DNA of 24,598 nt from a virus. Under the pieces are notes generated by a model. The model made no database searches and had not been told where the DNA came from. It saw nothing but the letters and a program-made list of their open reading frames with translations. The translations under genes were made by a program, and so were the position numbers. Of this stretch, positions 3,746 to 20,334 are shown one piece after another (within the stretch, counting starts at the first letter, position 1; each line of letters begins with the position of its first letter). The stretch covers positions 1 to 24,598 of the IMG/VR virus record IMGVR_UViG_3300050821_011441, one strand, 5' to 3'.

Positions 3746-4474
3746 CTAGCCTTTGTATTTTGACTTTAAATCACGCATAGACAACGCATTACTACCGGAA
3801 TCCGTTCCAAGATTAGAAGGTCGTTGTTGACTTAAAGGTGCATTAGGTGTTCGTCTGCTACTTGCAGCTTCGTTGTTTTTGATTGAATCAGCAAGACGTC
3901 GCAAGTCGTGGATAGCTTCCTGTGGAAACTCCCGAGCTGTTAATTCTAGTTGAGCCAATTTTGCACGATTCTTGCTTAATTCATAAAGCACATCATGTGG
4001 GTTATCTACCATCTCAGCCAACATGTGTACGGTATTAGGGAATCGTTGCAATTCAACGTCACCAGTAACTTTCTCAAAGTCTTCGTATTTATCTTTGCCA
4101 ACTGCCATTTTATCGTAAAAGTTCTTTACGATTCTCTGGGCATTTTCAGTTTCACTGCGTGTCTGCCATTCTGACCGTTCGGTATCGCGAATCTTTTGTG
4201 CTTCCTCCGCCGCTACCTGCCTATACCGCTCCTCGCTCATCGAATAATTCTGTTGAGTCTGAGGTGGTGATGGCTGATAGTTGGATTGTGCTGACTCTTG
4301 GGAGCGCTTGTACTGCTCTACCGCTCGAGACGCTGCCTCCTGCGATCGCTTACCTACAATGTCATTAACTTCGGACTGCCTTAGCATCTTCTCTTGCGGA
4401 GCTGATGTTTCAGGGGCTGAAACTGGTGCTGGTGTCGATACTTCCGTGCTTTGACCTATTACATCATCCATCAA
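3746..4474 (-). CDS. Scaffold-like internal capsid assembly protein
   Basis: The protein has 242 residues and is very hydrophilic. A Pro/Ser/Gln-rich disordered N-terminal third is followed by charged helices with coiled-coil character (about 85-200). It ends in a short basic segment, SMRDLKSKYKG, the kind of C-terminal basic helix that scaffolding proteins of P22-like phages use to bind coat. AAGGA precedes the start; two adjacent ATGs are possible. It is directly upstream of coat, as expected. Shorter than P22 gp8 (about 300 residues). Confidence 0.7.
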   Translation of the reverse strand: MMDDVIGQSTEVSTPAPVSAPETSAPQEKMLRQSEVNDIVGKRSQEAASRAVEQYKRSQESAQSNYQPSPPQTQQNYSMSEERYRQVAAEEAQKIRDTERSEWQTRSETENAQRIVKNFYDKMAVGKDKYEDFEKVTGDVELQRFPNTVHMLAEMVDNPHDVLYELSKNRAKLAQLELTAREFPQEAIHDLRRLADSIKNNEAASSRRTPNAPLSQQRPSNLGTDSGSNALSMRDLKSKYKG

Positions 4475-4638
4475 TTACATCCTTCTAGCTGTTAACGCCG
4501 CCACGCTGTTGCCTCAATTTAAAGTTTGAGTGAACTAGCTGTTGCCCCGCTACGGTAAATATCCTCGCTATGTGTCACGAGTCTACATACTGAAATTGTT
4601 AGATAGACTGTAATAAATAATGATTTTTTGAGCAAAGC

Positions 4639-4667
4639 TTGTTACAATTGGTTCATGATTTTCATAA
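4639..4667 (+). promoter_or_regulatory. Sigma-70-like promoter for the inserted HTH gene
   Basis: TTGTTA at 4639-4644, a 17-base spacer and TCATAA at 4662-4667 face the HTH gene, whose AGGGA ribosome site is at 4674-4678. The elements deviate from consensus, but the spacing is ideal and there is no other way to transcribe this gene against the late operon. Confidence 0.45.
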
Positions 4668-4685
4668 AAATACAGGGATTTATTG

Positions 4686-4883
4686 ATGATAAAATTGATG
4701 AATGAAATGGTTATGACCGATAAAGAGGCCGCGGATAGATATGGATATTCTCCGTATTGGTTTCAAAAGATGCGTTCATTGAAGAGAGGCCCACCGTATT
4801 TACAGATGAAGGGCAAAGGAAAGGTTTATTATTATGTTGAGAAGACTGATGAATGGTTTAGAGAAAATATGGTGGAAAAATAA
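4686..4883 (+). CDS. Small helix-turn-helix protein (excisionase/AlpA-like), moron-type insertion
   Basis: The protein has 65 residues. MTDKEAADRYGYSPYWFQKM matches the N-terminal helix-turn-helix of the excisionase/HTH_17 type. It is followed by a basic RSLKRGPPYLQMKGKGKVYY wing and a short helix (TDEWFREN). I use the ATG at 4686, seven bases after AGGGA, rather than the TTG just before it. The gene runs against the late operon, between scaffold and an appendage gene, with its own promoter upstream and a 16-bp hairpin downstream. That is a typical moron arrangement, allowing expression from a silent prophage or early in infection. It could regulate late genes, act in excision or modify host transcription. 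Confidence 0.65.
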   Translation: MIKLMNEMVMTDKEAADRYGYSPYWFQKMRSLKRGPPYLQMKGKGKVYYYVEKTDEWFRENMVEK

Positions 4884-4908
4884 ATTAATTTATAAATTTA
4901 AAGAAGCA

Positions 4909-4944
4909 AACCCAATTAATCTTAAGAATAAGATTAATTGGGTT
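4909..4944. terminator. 16-bp perfect inverted repeat, bidirectional terminator
   Basis: The arms 4909-4924 and 4929-4944 are exactly complementary over 16 bases with an AGAA tetraloop. The hairpin lies between the end of the HTH gene (+) and the end of an appendage gene (-). The minus direction is followed by TGCTTCTTT and further AT-rich sequence. It likely insulates the inserted gene from the late operon. Confidence 0.75.
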
Positions 4945-4960
4945 GCCCAATATATTATAG

Positions 4961-6289
4961 TTATACTAACTGAGATAGGGTCAGGAAAGTATTTCCTGGA
5001 CCTCCTCCAGAAAGTATTATTCTGTTTGCTCCCGAATTTTGATTGGTTGACAATGTTAATATTTGACCGGAAGTTAGAAACATAACGCCGTTAGCAGCAC
5101 TTGTTACTAGCGTTACATCTGCATTAGCTACAGCCCCAGTATTCGCTAGAAATTGCGAGGCTACTCCATTAATGTAAACAGCACTTGTTAATATAATCCC
5201 CGTATCGCCACTCATTAATTGTAAAATTATTTGATAACTAACATAGTAATATCCAGTAACTCTGACCGTGTAAGCATTAGCTGCAAATGATGATGCAGTA
5301 TCAAACGTTACTGTATCTAAAGTAAGTTGTGTATAAACTCCAGAAGGAACAGATTGTGCTACTGCAGGTCCTTGAGATGCATATAATTTGGGTTGAGCAT
5401 TTTGGACAATAATAGTTGATGAGGATATTCCTGAATCTATCATTATACCTGCTGTTCCCTGTGCAACAGGAAAGTTTCCGTTTACAAAAGGTGCATTGCC
5501 TGGTCCCAATAAAATTTGTGCTGACGCATTGGCGGGATCAGGTATGGTAATATTTGTTACTTGTCCATAAGGAGCTAGCTCTAGAGCTATTGAATAATCT
5601 CCTAAGTTTGTAGGGCAATTAATGATAAAGTTACCTGAGTTTGCGTCTGGAGGATAACAAATGAAGCTTCCTGCGGTTCCACTAAGTCCAGCCTGGATAT
5701 CACCAGCATTAATGGTTGCTCCCGGAGCAGAAGTTATGTTTCCGGTGACACTTGAAAATTTAGCTATATAATCTATTGATGCAGGTGGTGAAGTTAATGA
5801 TACTAATGCCGAAGATGATATCCCGCTGTCTTTAATGGAACCCATATTATCGGAAAATACGACAACATCCCCAGAAACCGGGGTTATTGTTAAATCCACC
5901 ATAGAAACATTTGACAAACTGCTATTAGAGGGTTTGTATCCAGAATCAGCCAACGCTCCAGAAGTATTTGCCCAGTTTGCAAAATCTCCCGTCGTAACTG
6001 GTAAAATTATTTCCCCTGGAATTGAAGTTGGCATCAGAGTGATAATTCCATCTGTTATAGAGACACTAAAAGAACCATATAATCCAACTTGAGTTTGTGG
6101 ATTAAAATTATAAAGAATTTGCAAAATATCTGTAGTAGAAACAGGATTGCTTTGTAAATCTACTTGATTAAGATACCCTTCGGTTGAAATCGTGGAAAGA
6201 TCGTCCCCACATACCATTGCTTTAAAATTAGGAGATATTCCCACAGTCGCAGGCCACGGTGTAGGTAGTTGATAAATTGTAACGCTCAT
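4961..6289 (-). CDS. Appendage/fibre protein with C1q-like C-terminal domain
   Basis: The protein has 442 residues. Residues about 15-95 form a domain shared with the next two appendage genes (SPNFKAMVCGDDLSTIS, GYLNQVDLQSNP, FSVSITDGIITL). A central Gly/Ser/Asn-rich region holds three copies of a D-S-G motif (GALADSGY, GSIKDSGISSS, GIMIDSGISSS). The last ~130 residues (from about VPSGVYTQLTLDTVTFD, with YYVSYQI, AVYINGV and a terminal GNTFLTLSQL) look like a C1q/TNF-type jelly roll, which often trimerises and binds receptors. AAGGA lies before the ATG. Probably the receptor-binding appendage; attachment by the shared N-terminal domain is inferred. Confidence 0.65.
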   Translation of the reverse strand: MSVTIYQLPTPWPATVGISPNFKAMVCGDDLSTISTEGYLNQVDLQSNPVSTTDILQILYNFNPQTQVGLYGSFSVSITDGIITLMPTSIPGEIILPVTTGDFANWANTSGALADSGYKPSNSSLSNVSMVDLTITPVSGDVVVFSDNMGSIKDSGISSSALVSLTSPPASIDYIAKFSSVTGNITSAPGATINAGDIQAGLSGTAGSFICYPPDANSGNFIINCPTNLGDYSIALELAPYGQVTNITIPDPANASAQILLGPGNAPFVNGNFPVAQGTAGIMIDSGISSSTIIVQNAQPKLYASQGPAVAQSVPSGVYTQLTLDTVTFDTASSFAANAYTVRVTGYYYVSYQIILQLMSGDTGIILTSAVYINGVASQFLANTGAVANADVTLVTSAANGVMFLTSGQILTLSTNQNSGANRIILSGGGPGNTFLTLSQLV

Positions 6290-17059: not shown

Positions 17060-17247
17060 CCATACAAACCCAAATAGACGCATGTCTACTAAAAAAAGAC
17101 TATATGGAGCAATCCATATGTCTTAAAGAATTGAAAGCAGACCAGTCTCAACAACTTGTCCATGTAGTAGGGGCGTCCGCTATATTATCAATAATTGTAG
17201 TCGGTACGTTATTATTACTACATCACAAGACAAGGAGTAAAAAATGA
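17056..17247 (+). CDS. Tail-anchored small membrane protein
   Basis: The protein has 63 residues. A helical N-terminus (QIDACLLKKDYMEQSICLKE) is followed by one hydrophobic span at about 38-57 (VVGASAILSIIVVGTLLLL) and a basic tail HHKTRSKK. The topology suggests the N-terminus outside or in the cytoplasm with the basic tail in the cytoplasm; it cannot be fixed from sequence. Coupled at both ends by ATGA overlaps. Confidence 0.55.
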   Translation: MTIQTQIDACLLKKDYMEQSICLKELKADQSQQLVHVVGASAILSIIVVGTLLLLHHKTRSKK

Positions 17248-17423
17248 TTGACATAGAAAAACTAGAAGACCACAGAAAATATCAAATCGAAGAAAATCGA
17301 AAAATAAGCAGACGAGTAGACGAATACGGATTAATTATATGTGAGCTACAAGGACAAGTGAATGACTTAAGGTGGAGAATGAACGAAGTATGTAATAAAT
17401 TACATTTGGAAGAAAAATTATGA
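17244..17423 (+). CDS. 59-residue coiled-coil early protein
   Basis: ATG 17244 to TGA 17421-17423: MIDIEKLEDHRKYQIEENRK, ISRRVDEYGLIICELQGQVN, then a helix with NDLRWRMNEV. Highly charged and helical. Its start motif MIDxEKL recurs in the next gene and at 19948. The ribosome site lies in ACAAGGAGT (17230-17238), the best CsrA-like site in the window. ATGA overlaps at both ends. Confidence 0.55.
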   Translation: MIDIEKLEDHRKYQIEENRKISRRVDEYGLIICELQGQVNDLRWRMNEVCNKLHLEEKL

Positions 17424-17959
17424 TTGACTACGAAAAACTTAAAAAAGCGCATAAATTGGCTGATAAATATACAGAAATGAATTTCCCACGAATTGTAAAC
17501 ATTTCTACAATCCATGGAAAAGAAATTTTAAGCTGGCGCTTGTTTTGTTTAGAAATAACAGATGATTCAAAATTAGTATTTGATTGGAAATTTACTACCG
17601 AAGATGACCTACTCGACAAACTTAAAGAATTAACGCAACCAGAACCAAAATACAAAGTAGGCGATGAAGTATGGATTGTTGAGGATGATGAATGCCAGTC
17701 CTATGTTGTCGATGGTATATCGGGTAGTAGATATTATTTGAGCCATCCCTACAATAGAGGCCTCATCTACGAATCAAAATTATACCCCACAAAACAAGCC
17801 CTAATCGAAGCCCAAATAGCCTACTGGTTATCTCTAAAAATAGATGAGGATGCCAAAGAATTGGGTATGCAAAAAATCGGTGAATGCCAACACGAAAGCG
17901 ACTCCACACAGTTCGGCCCTCCTTGGAGATGCAAAAAATGCGGAGAATTCTACAAATGA
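17420..17959 (+). CDS. Early protein with C-terminal zinc ribbon, larger member
   Basis: The protein has 179 residues. N-terminal module (1-75): MIDYEKLKKAHKLADKYTEM, beta strands, and LVFDWKFTTEDDLLDKLKEL. Middle module (about 80-145): YKVGDEVWIVEDDECQSYVV and then a KOW/SH3-like beta set with a helix. C-terminal zinc module: ECQHESD...WRCKKCGEFYK. The zinc module recurs in the next gene at protein and DNA level. The N-terminal module looks distantly like the gene at 20331. Possibly an adaptor between proteins or nucleic acids. Confidence 0.6.
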   Translation: MIDYEKLKKAHKLADKYTEMNFPRIVNISTIHGKEILSWRLFCLEITDDSKLVFDWKFTTEDDLLDKLKELTQPEPKYKVGDEVWIVEDDECQSYVVDGISGSRYYLSHPYNRGLIYESKLYPTKQALIEAQIAYWLSLKIDEDAKELGMQKIGECQHESDSTQFGPPWRCKKCGEFYK

Positions 17960-18153
17960 ACGATGAAAAATTACCCTTATTTCCAGGTATTACTGTAACA
18001 GGAAATGCTACGGTAAAAGTGGGCGTCTGTTGTTCGATAGTTGAAAAGGTTGAATGCCAACACGAAAGCGATGGGAAATATTGGATGCAATCTACGTTTC
18101 CTAACAATCATTGCGGATATGAATGCAAAAAATGCGGAGAATTCTACAAATGA
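17956..18153 (+). CDS. Small protein with duplicated zinc-ribbon module
   Basis: The protein has 65 residues, MNDEKLPLFPGITVTGNATV and then VKVGVCCSIVEKVECQHESD, ending CGYECKKCGEFYK. The start ATG forms an ATGA overlap with the upstream stop, which decides it over a longer frame beginning at 17884. The end is nearly identical to the end of the upstream protein. The 30 bases covering CKKCGEFYK and the stop are identical at 17930-17959 and 18124-18153. Confidence 0.6.
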   Translation: MNDEKLPLFPGITVTGNATVKVGVCCSIVEKVECQHESDGKYWMQSTFPNNHCGYECKKCGEFYK

Positions 18154-18233: not shown

Positions 18234-18392
18234 ATGATAATAAGTGAAAAACAGATAATTCAATTAATGATATATCTAACAGATTCTCTGGATGGAAAAA
18301 TAACCCCCGTAGAAATGGATGAAGCCTATTGGCTTCTAAATGATATTTCTAATCAACAAACTGTGTCAGAAGAATTAAAGGAAATAAAATGA
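18234..18392 (+). CDS. 52-residue acidic helical protein
   Basis: ATG 18234 with AAGGAAG nine bases upstream: MIISEKQIIQLMIYLTDSLD, then GKITPVEMDEAYWLLNDISN and a Glu/Lys tail. Helical and acidic. The stop overlaps the next ATG (ATGA at 18389-18392). Family not recognised. Confidence 0.5.
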   Translation: MIISEKQIIQLMIYLTDSLDGKITPVEMDEAYWLLNDISNQQTVSEELKEIK

Positions 18393-18559
18393 CTCCAAAA
18401 GAAATATTCTGTCACTACCTTGAAGAAACAGTAAATGAATTAAGAACGCACCCAGAAACAAACGTTTATATCTACGAGGTCTGTAAAAACCTAATTGAAT
18501 ATACAGAAGAATTTTGTGAAGAAAGCATAAAAAAAAATAAAGTAAGGATAATAAGATGA
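18389..18559 (+). CDS. 56-residue early protein with Cys residues
   Basis: ATG 18389 with AAAGGAA upstream: MTPKEIFCHYLEETVNELRT, HPETNVYIYEVCKNLIEYTE, then EFCEESIKKN. Two helices with three Cys. The stop overlaps the next start by ATGA. No family recognised. Confidence 0.5.
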   Translation: MTPKEIFCHYLEETVNELRTHPETNVYIYEVCKNLIEYTEEFCEESIKKNKVRIIR

Positions 18560-18822: not shown

Positions 18823-18987
18823 ATGAATGACTTCATGAAATCAACATTAAAATGGATGTTAAGAAGTTCTGTATGGGCATTCTCTGGATATCTTATGAGC
18901 TGCTCATTTTCACAAATTAATTCATTTTCAGCTGAGATGTTATTCACTGTTGGTGCATTATTGTTTATTGGAGCATTTAGGATATGA
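18823..18987 (+). CDS. 54-residue two-span membrane protein with MNDF start
   Basis: ATG 18823 to TGA 18985-18987: MNDFMKSTLKWMLRSSVWAF, then two hydrophobic segments (SVWAFSGYLMSC and AEMLFTVGALLFIGAF). The first 13 bases (ATGAATGACTTCA) equal those of the five MNDFTKEE genes that follow, but the rest does not match them, so it looks like the same start seam joined to a different body. Confidence 0.5.
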   Translation: MNDFMKSTLKWMLRSSVWAFSGYLMSCSFSQINSFSAEMLFTVGALLFIGAFRI

Positions 18988-19181
18988 ATGACTTCACAAA
19001 AGAAGAACTAGAAGATATTTATGAAGCAGTGATGGATACATCCATTGCTATGTTCATATATTTACCCTCTAAAATCCAATCAATGATTGACAACTACTGC
19101 GATCATAAAGAAAAATTTAATGATTACGATACATGCCCAATTGAAAGATGCAAAAATTGTTGTGGGATTATAAATGAATGA
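18984..19181 (+). CDS. MNDFTKEE family protein A, zinc-binding
   Basis: The protein has 65 residues. Three parts are shared with its neighbours: MNDFTKEELEDIYEAV start helix, a middle KIQSMIDNYCDHK helix, and a Cys-rich end (CPIERCKNCCGIINE). The Cys/His spacing suggests one zinc site. The start overlaps the upstream stop by ATGA. First of five tandem relatives. Function unknown; such N-terminal FTKEEL proteins occur in other phages, and a partner-binding role is likely. Confidence 0.6.
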   Translation: MNDFTKEELEDIYEAVMDTSIAMFIYLPSKIQSMIDNYCDHKEKFNDYDTCPIERCKNCCGIINE

Positions 19182-19341
19182 CTTCACAAAAGAAGATGAA
19201 TTAGTACATAAGCTTGAGAAATTACATCAATATTTAAGCGGCGCACATTCCGTATGTGATCATGATAATTCAAGTGCTACTTTTCACCAGGCGGTTCATA
19301 CAGTGCTAGAAATTATATTATGGATTAGAGAAAATGAATGA
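19174..19341 (+). CDS. MNDFTKEE family protein B, lacking the zinc end
   Basis: ATG 19174 gives MNDFTKEDELVHKLEKLHQY, then YLSGAHSVCDHDNSSATFHQ and an end LEIILWIRENE. It shares only the start motif with its neighbours: no KIQSMIDNY helix and no CxxC. It overlaps A by eight bases and C by eight bases (ATGAATGA). It therefore shows the seam with a different body. Confidence 0.6.
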   Translation: MNDFTKEDELVHKLEKLHQYLSGAHSVCDHDNSSATFHQAVHTVLEIILWIRENE

Positions 19342-19561
19342 CTTCACAAAAGAAGAATTAGAGCATATTCGAGATGGATTAGAATTATGGAATTCAAAAC
19401 ATTTCTGTTCGGGTATGAGAAATGTTTATCTAAAAATTCAATCCATGATAGATAACTATAATGAAGCATGTGAACACGTTCCTGGATTAATTGGTCATAA
19501 AACACCTGATGGCCATAGTGTTGGTTTAATAACATGCATTAAATGTGGGGTTATAATATGA
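19334..19561 (+). CDS. MNDFTKEE family protein C, zinc-binding
   Basis: The protein has 75 residues: MNDFTKEELEHIRDGLELWN, KIQSMIDNYNEACEH, then GLITCIKCGVII. C, H and a CxxC pair form the likely zinc site. Start and middle helix match A and E closely. The stop overlaps the next ATG by ATGA. Confidence 0.6.
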   Translation: MNDFTKEELEHIRDGLELWNSKHFCSGMRNVYLKIQSMIDNYNEACEHVPGLIGHKTPDGHSVGLITCIKCGVII

Positions 19562-19746
19562 ATGACTTCACAAAAGAAGAGCTAATGATTTTTATTTACT
19601 ACGAAGAACAAGCAAATGGTCAATCTCCTCTTTACGATAAAATCAAATCCATGATTGAAAACTATTGCGAACATGAAAGCTATCGAAAAGATGAATGGAT
19701 GATATGCATATGTAATAAATGTCATAAGGTATTTGATGATGAATGA
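19558..19746 (+). CDS. MNDFTKEE family protein D, zinc-binding
   Basis: The protein has 62 residues: MNDFTKEELMIFIYYEEQAN, KIKSMIENYCEHESY, then ICICNKCHKVFDDE. The true start is ATG 19558, overlapping the stop of C; a frame opening 15 bases earlier lacks the family start. Its end overlaps E by eight bases. Confidence 0.6.
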   Translation: MNDFTKEELMIFIYYEEQANGQSPLYDKIKSMIENYCEHESYRKDEWMICICNKCHKVFDDE

Positions 19747-19924
19747 CTTCACGAAAGAAGAATTAATATTGCTAAAATCATTATCAGAACATAGGGGCAC
19801 GATGAAATTAATCAATAAAATCCAATCCATGCTCGATAACCATTGCAATCACAATCTAGCAATCTACATAGGACCAAACGGCACAAAAGTCAGCTGCCAA
19901 AAATGTAAAAAAGAATTTCAATAA
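19739..19924 (+). CDS. MNDFTKEE family protein E, zinc-binding
   Basis: The protein has 61 residues: MNDFTKEELILLKSLSEHRG, KIQSMLDNHCNHN, then VSCQKCKKEFQ. The start is ATG 19739, inside the eight-base overlap with D. Last member of the array; the next gene has a separate ribosome site after a 23-base gap. Confidence 0.6.
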   Translation: MNDFTKEELILLKSLSEHRGTMKLINKIQSMLDNHCNHNLAIYIGPNGTKVSCQKCKKEFQ

Positions 19925-20145: not shown

Positions 20146-20334
20146 ATGTTAATGCTAACTAGAAGGCCCGGAGAGTCAATCGTAATTGACGGTCACATAG
20201 AAATATTTGTTCAAGAAATAATGGTAGGAGGAACCTACAGCAACCAGGTTCGTCTAGGAATTATTGCAAAAAAAGAGATAACAGTTCATCGCAAGGAAAT
20301 ACAACAAAAAATAGACAAGGAGACGGCCAAATGA
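20146..20334 (+). CDS. csrA: CsrA/RsmA homologue (phage-encoded post-transcriptional regulator)
   Basis: The protein has 62 residues, against 61 in E. coli CsrA. MLMLTRRPGESIVIDGHIEI aligns with the MLILTRRVGETLMIGDEV start, and NQVRLGIIAKKEITVHRKEI with [20 protein letters not shown]. The RNA-binding Arg of the LTRR strand and the VHR motif are present; the central loop is about two residues longer (MVGGTYSNQ). CsrA dimers bind GGA motifs over ribosome sites and repress or stabilise mRNAs. AAGGA is upstream, and the stop overlaps the next gene (ATGA). Several early-gene ribosome sites here contain ACARGGA. Confidence 0.92.
   Translation: MLMLTRRPGESIVIDGHIEIFVQEIMVGGTYSNQVRLGIIAKKEITVHRKEIQQKIDKETAK

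Follow-up and report, generated by a model that had tools for sequence, protein, structure and literature searches.

Two conserved coding boxes and independently assorting gene halves in an array of small phage genes

Related systems and the array locus

Mosaicism among the accessory genes of phages is well known, and small "ORFan" genes arise quickly. In lambdoid mosaicism, conserved short boundary or linker sequences at overlapping gene boundaries are candidate recombination points and whole genes are exchanged, whereas at the locus described here an internal box (CORE) appears to recombine parts of one protein. PeSL, which are intergenic promoter/stem-loop elements, were reportedly described by Arbiol et al. 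in 2010 as mobile regulatory cassettes of T4-type phages, short repeats between accessory genes that are said to have been proposed for modular shuffling; in contrast, the seams here are protein-coding, leave no intergenic space and split genes into halves. In the cluster K mycobacteriophages, a short asymmetric repeat (SAS/ESAS) lies at the starts of many unrelated small genes (PMC3203893). The box at the gene starts of the present locus (HEAD) resembles it in that one repeat sits on the starts of genes of different families. However, SAS (GGGATAGGAGCCC) is located upstream of the start codon, whereas HEAD is coding, begins at the ATG and includes two stops; moreover, CORE forms a second box inside the gene, and half-gene shuffling is not known for SAS. 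Redbeta, RecT and Erf recombine short, diverged homologies and produce mosaics, as shown in E. coli laboratory phages (PMC3945230).

We analyzed a 24.6-kb IMG/VR virus record, a fragment, over its whole length of 24,598 nucleotides (the window). The genes annotated in it were terminase, portal, coat, scaffold, a DnaB-like helicase and a replication initiator, and a block of small rightward genes, with the terminase on one side and the helicase on the other, contains the array. Sequence comparison bore out the first-pass annotation in that five genes (18984, 19174, 19334, 19558 and 19739) share an almost identical start, ATGAATGACTTCAC(A/G)AAAGAAG, and a sixth (18823) has only the first 13 nt (ATGAATGACTTCA) in common with them and diverges thereafter. 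AATGACTTCA occurred at six plus-strand sites of the window, namely the six starts, and at none on the minus strand. The previous stop lies within the seam, as had also been described, with overlaps of 4 nt (ATGA) at 18823/18984 and 19334/19558 and of 8 nt (ATGAATGA) at 18984/19174, 19174/19334 and 19558/19739; the TAA of the gene at 18556 directly abuts the 18823 start. The KIQSMIDNY-type core, likewise correctly assigned to four members, was found in 18984, 19334, 19558 (KIKSMIENY) and 19739 (KIQSMLDNH), and the repeat is visible in the DNA too. The 19174 body is unrelated, and the 18823 product looks like a membrane protein from its sequence; relatives also have short-head or membrane-like genes (e.g. 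L183:5141). For the last array gene, the ORF tool placed the start at TTG 19733, and the family start is ATG 19739. The features are as follows, with V1 and V2 denoting the variable segments before and after CORE and relatives given by L-number.

17244 to 17423, plus strand: open reading frame with a MIDIEKLE head, of the same head class as MIDYEKLK
17420 to 17959, plus strand: second constant head family (MIDYEKLK, ATGATTGAC), with tail modules PKYKVGDEVW and CKKCGEFYK
18234 to 18392, plus strand: third modular family, MIISEKQ...NQQ-tail; in L156, an MNDF gene carries this tail as a fusion
18823 to 18987, plus strand: open reading frame with a partial head (first 13 nt of HEAD; MNDFMKST...) and, from reading the sequence, a probable membrane body
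18984 to 19181, plus strand: head-and-core gene 1; V1 as in L001, V2 as in L185 and L003, the other halves of those partners being unrelated
18984 to 19010, plus strand: HEAD box copy 1, 27 nt; further copies at 19174, 19334, 19558 and 19739, and a partial copy at 18823
19071 to 19106, plus strand: CORE box copy 1, KIQSMIDNYCDH; further copies start at 19433, 19639 and 19817
19174 to 19341, plus strand: head gene 2; body LEKLHQYLSGAHSVCDHDNSSATFHQ without CORE, found elsewhere under the heads MIDYEKLK and MNPLA
19334 to 19561, plus strand: head-and-core gene 3
19558 to 19746, plus strand: head-and-core gene 4; V1 common to L062 and L160, where it is joined to a different V2
19739 to 19924, plus strand: head-and-core gene 5; V2 common to L170 and L120, V1 unrelated

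A CsrA-like gene adjoins the array (window 20146-20334, plus strand; Pfam 1.4e-16), and CsrA genes were found in 12 of the 45 genomes searched.

Box conservation and the stop/start joint

The typical gene runs HEAD (MNDFTKEEL), V1, CORE (KIQSMIDNYCEH) and V2, the zinc end, for which we infer zinc binding from its C.H...C..C pattern. The start repeat is far beyond chance: the head recurs in at least 209 distinct genes from at least 120 IMG/VR genome groups, with 1 to 6 per group. This gene set combined a one-query IMG/VR search, which gave at least 130 relatives, with a degenerate-codon pattern scan, and the relatives were uncultured metagenomic assemblies throughout.

Codon choice in the boxes was assessed with one gene per genome, the expectation being that genome's own codon usage. 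The results showed the same rare codons kept across genomes in both HEAD (ACG, 68 observed vs 16 expected; TTC, 63 vs 29; GAG, 65 vs 31) and CORE (TCC, 52 vs 7; AAC, 72 vs 27; ATC, 40 vs 12). The Cys codons of the zinc CxxC, which served as the control, were neutral, though Cys is equally conserved as protein. Since rare codons are kept in the boxes and the zinc Cys codons are neutral, these results indicate that the boxes are held as nucleic acid. The first-pass annotation had made its proposal of exchange depend on unequal synonymous divergence of seam and body, and this is what we found: seam codons are conserved and comparable body codons are not. Such conservation could serve translation or RNA regulation instead of recombination, and homogenization by exchange is another possible source. 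The boxes show some synonymous drift, with 147 different 27-nt heads among the 209, and synonymous identity of heads was 0.67 within a genome vs 0.62 between genomes, indicating only slight within-genome homogenization. An Rfam search gave no match, and a tRNA search found none. Near the V2 ends, the Gly codon of CxxCG was GGG above expectation (z 5.1); a role of CxxCG as Shine-Dalgarno sequence for the next gene was rejected because this enrichment is not specific to positions near starts.

The 8-nt overlap ATGAATGA carries TGA in both non-head frames, and both stops are in use, the upstream open reading frame ending at the first in 61 cases and at the second in 80. TGA was present at positions 2-4 in 207/209 heads and TGA or TAA at positions 6-8 in 198/209, so that about 95% of the 209 have stops in both other frames. 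Thus, whichever of the two other phases an incoming body is in, it would be ended and the next gene restarted. The second head, ATGATTGA, also has stops in both other frames by inspection. The first-pass annotation had recognized the stop within the seam and overlooked both its presence in the two other frames and the second constant head, MIDYEKLK, in the window.

Assortment of gene halves and exchange between relatives

We compared 176 core-bearing genes in 15,400 pairs after collapsing DNA-identical genes. V1 was homologous in 79 pairs and V2 in 176, and no pair was homologous in both, against 0.9 expected if the two were independent; at looser thresholds, both were homologous in 6 pairs vs 6.2 expected. 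In the half-segment control, linkage was 57x within V1 and 8x within V2, whereas between V1b and V2a, across the 10-residue CORE, it was 0.7x chance. Across HEAD, pairs sharing V1 or V2 had a homologous neighbor in 3/57 and 3/112 cases (background 3.5% and 2.7%), in tests that covered 41 tandem junctions and have less power than those of the core. These results show independent assortment of V1 and V2, both from one another and from the neighboring genes, and hardly any two phages have a combination in common. Within the window, the gene at 18984 has its V1 in common with L001 and its V2 with L185, and the gene at 19558 has its V1 in common with L062, the other half being unrelated each time. 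Synonymous identity in V1-homologous pairs (0.518 vs 0.444 by chance) is near saturation, so the divergence is deep.

Heads and tails were also exchanged beyond the core genes. The 19174 body follows an MNDFTK-type head in the window and in four relatives, MIDYEKLK in L207 and MNPLA in L205/L206, and an MNDFTKEQF head precedes an AlpA domain at L109:6114-6338 (PF05930, 1.4e-13, residues 16-63). Altogether, the head is borne by unrelated bodies, namely core genes, AlpA, membrane-like, zinc and HSVCDHDNSS. Conversely, tails of the MIDYEKLK family (PKYKVG... and CKKCGEFYK) and the NQQSEELK tail of the third family were found on MNDF genes in L169, L094 and L156. In the window itself, a 31-nt identical repeat (17929-17959 and 18123-18153) encodes the CKKCGEFYK end of two adjoining open reading frames, a duplicated tail module.

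In three pairs of close relatives, exchange limits lay within short shared homology, the edges falling at HEAD/CORE or at the zinc CEH. L036 and L089 are ~97% identical over kilobases, and in the array only HEAD-V1-CORE is kept (~92%); both sides are replaced, and the replaced segments stop at the HEAD start and the CORE end. L047 and L076 share a 299-bp block, 99% identical against a background of 81-89%, that begins at CORE in one gene and ends at the zinc CEH in the next. In L040 and L062, the preceding gene and the following V2 are kept and the V1 between them is replaced. Contig flanks were collinear on either side of the swaps. Proof is confined to such high-identity pairs and to the linkage of protein halves; BLAST block edges alone were set aside because conserved boxes attract alignment ends. 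The swapping of gene bodies at the seam, as proposed in the first-pass annotation, is therefore seen at the head, but the proposal was incomplete: a further seam, no less sharp, lies within the gene at CORE, so that protein halves are exchanged as well as bodies.

Among 17 phages with a TerL 57-79% identical to that of the window, TerS was kept in 12 and the 15102 gene in 13, and none shared a V1+V2 combination of the window. The nearest TerL relative (79%) had two array genes, neither orthologous to those of the window, in permuted order. Gene order in related phages is thus not kept, the opposite of the fixed order that would have spoken against exchange.

Explanations for the mosaic array and its products

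We consider it probable that the locus encodes an array of small modular proteins, each with a helical N-terminal part and a zinc end, reshuffled by short-homology recombination at the boxes. HEAD would provide the start codon and MNDFTKEEL, V1 the rest of the N-terminal helix, CORE the second helix and first zinc ligands, and V2 the zinc end, followed by the HEAD of the next gene. The boxes may act as short homologies for annealing recombination, performed by a RecT-type phage recombinase (about a third of genomes) or by host functions, and cassettes would be spliced between co-infecting phages, with the seam keeping each product stopped, restarted and translationally coupled. Only tentatively do we go further and suggest a dedicated gene-assembly locus, in which selection would maintain two coding boxes, one of them also a frame-independent stop/start joint, as recombination sites. 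The phage population would then draw on a common pool of N- and C-terminal cassettes and combine them into new proteins of two parts, like a natural domain-shuffling library. If the boxes are true recombination sites, the arrays would constitute a natural library in which small zinc proteins, probably host-directed, are put together combinatorially, and they would provide a testable model of how new phage genes form. Sequences from more than 100 uncultured phages directly reveal the exchange unit, the joints and the frame rule, and the assortment of halves can be measured.

A RecT-type recombinase (PF03837) was found in 16 of 45 genomes, and neither in the window fragment nor in the remaining 29. 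Erf was dropped as the recombinase, having been found in 0/44 genomes. Reverse transcriptase (PF00078) was found in 0/45 and tyrosine integrase in 1/45; additionally, six of the 45 carried resolvase/invertase-type genes of ~200 aa (G007, G019, G023, G024, G036 and G037). A diversity-generating retroelement was rejected for want of a reverse transcriptase, and a shufflon or site-specific cassette system because most carriers have no dedicated recombinase. The frequency of RecT, its ability to use short homologies, the absence of reverse transcriptase and the scarcity of integrase and resolvase genes together make recombination at the boxes the best reading. Rad52-like relaxed recombination is general and not tied to dedicated repeated boxes (PMC3945230); here, the RecT genes of those 16 relatives make it a candidate. 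In L075 (G041), whose record has a PF03837 match, a recT-like open reading frame (3958-5001) lies directly upstream of an MNDFTKEEL gene, its stop overlapping the start seam.

Other explanations account for parts of the pattern. Box conservation at the RNA level (for efficient initiation, or for binding by an antisense RNA or by a regulator, for example the CsrA encoded nearby), with mosaicism arising from the usual illegitimate recombination and selection so that joints survive only where frame and coupling are kept, would agree with the strong rare-codon preference, with a head at the start codon, as mycobacteriophage SAS adjoin starts, and with the csrA gene beside the array and in 12/45 genomes. 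However, CORE shows the same codon conservation in mid-gene, block edges stopping at CORE are left unexplained, Rfam gave no match, and csrA was not found in most array-bearing relatives; we judge this explanation unlikely. Quite improbable, in our estimate, is ordinary tandem duplication and divergence, in which protein need alone keeps head and core while the rest drifts beyond recognition. It fits the tandem layout, the common head and core and the deep divergence of V1 pairs near synonymous saturation, but it should keep V1 and V2 homology in the same pairs, which the linkage test contradicts; moreover, unrelated bodies (AlpA, membrane-like, HSVCDHDNSS) bear the head, whole cassettes differ between near-identical phages, and codon choice shows no bias at the zinc Cys positions, which are conserved to the same degree.

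Constant ends with variable segments, and a resolvase-type gene in 6/45 genomes, recall programmed diversity through a retroelement, shufflon or site-specific cassette exchange. The counts of reverse transcriptase (0/45) and integrase (1/45) make this very improbable, as does the appearance of V1 and V2 segments, which look unrelated rather than like mutated copies; in the window, we noticed no store of silent cassettes. Metagenome-assembly chimeras joined at the 27-36-nt repeats are scarcely credible: the relatives are all metagenomic and repeats that long can confuse assembly, but independent datasets contain the same arrays (L010/L011, 99.9% over 9.7 kb; L089/L096/L106, 98-99% across the array; L073/L074, 99.8%), and flanks in one contig are collinear on either side of the swaps.

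Under recombination at the boxes, the products may be early host-interaction or counter-defence proteins in which new combinations are selected; we infer this role with less confidence, as it fits the rapid turnover of small zinc proteins. The array proteins had no Pfam match above cut-off, no match to the PADLOC anti-phage defence profiles and no convincing PHROG match, with at most 2 of the 105 members hitting any one PHROG. A tblastn search of cultured phages gave no convincing relative of the array proteins, and a helicase used as bait found no relatives. GTDB genomes yielded only two phage-sized contigs in MAGs (34-37 kb), so the array carrier is not a common prophage; the two contigs, L226 and L227, come from Planctomycetota and Bacteroidetes MAGs and are probably binned phage genomes. 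AlphaFold2, run with 105 sequences, predicted a helix at 6-18, a helix at 27-36 and two short strands forming a hairpin (mean pLDDT 75). On the contact role that the first-pass annotation had given the head, the model says only that the end of the head falls at the start of a helix. No solved fold in the PDB matched the predicted model; the nearest predicted folds belong to uncharacterized proteins of uncultured Caudovirales in BFVD (A0A6J5NL45, A0A6J5L3L3 and A0A6J5NL35), which resemble the array proteins in predicted fold at 34-37% identity.
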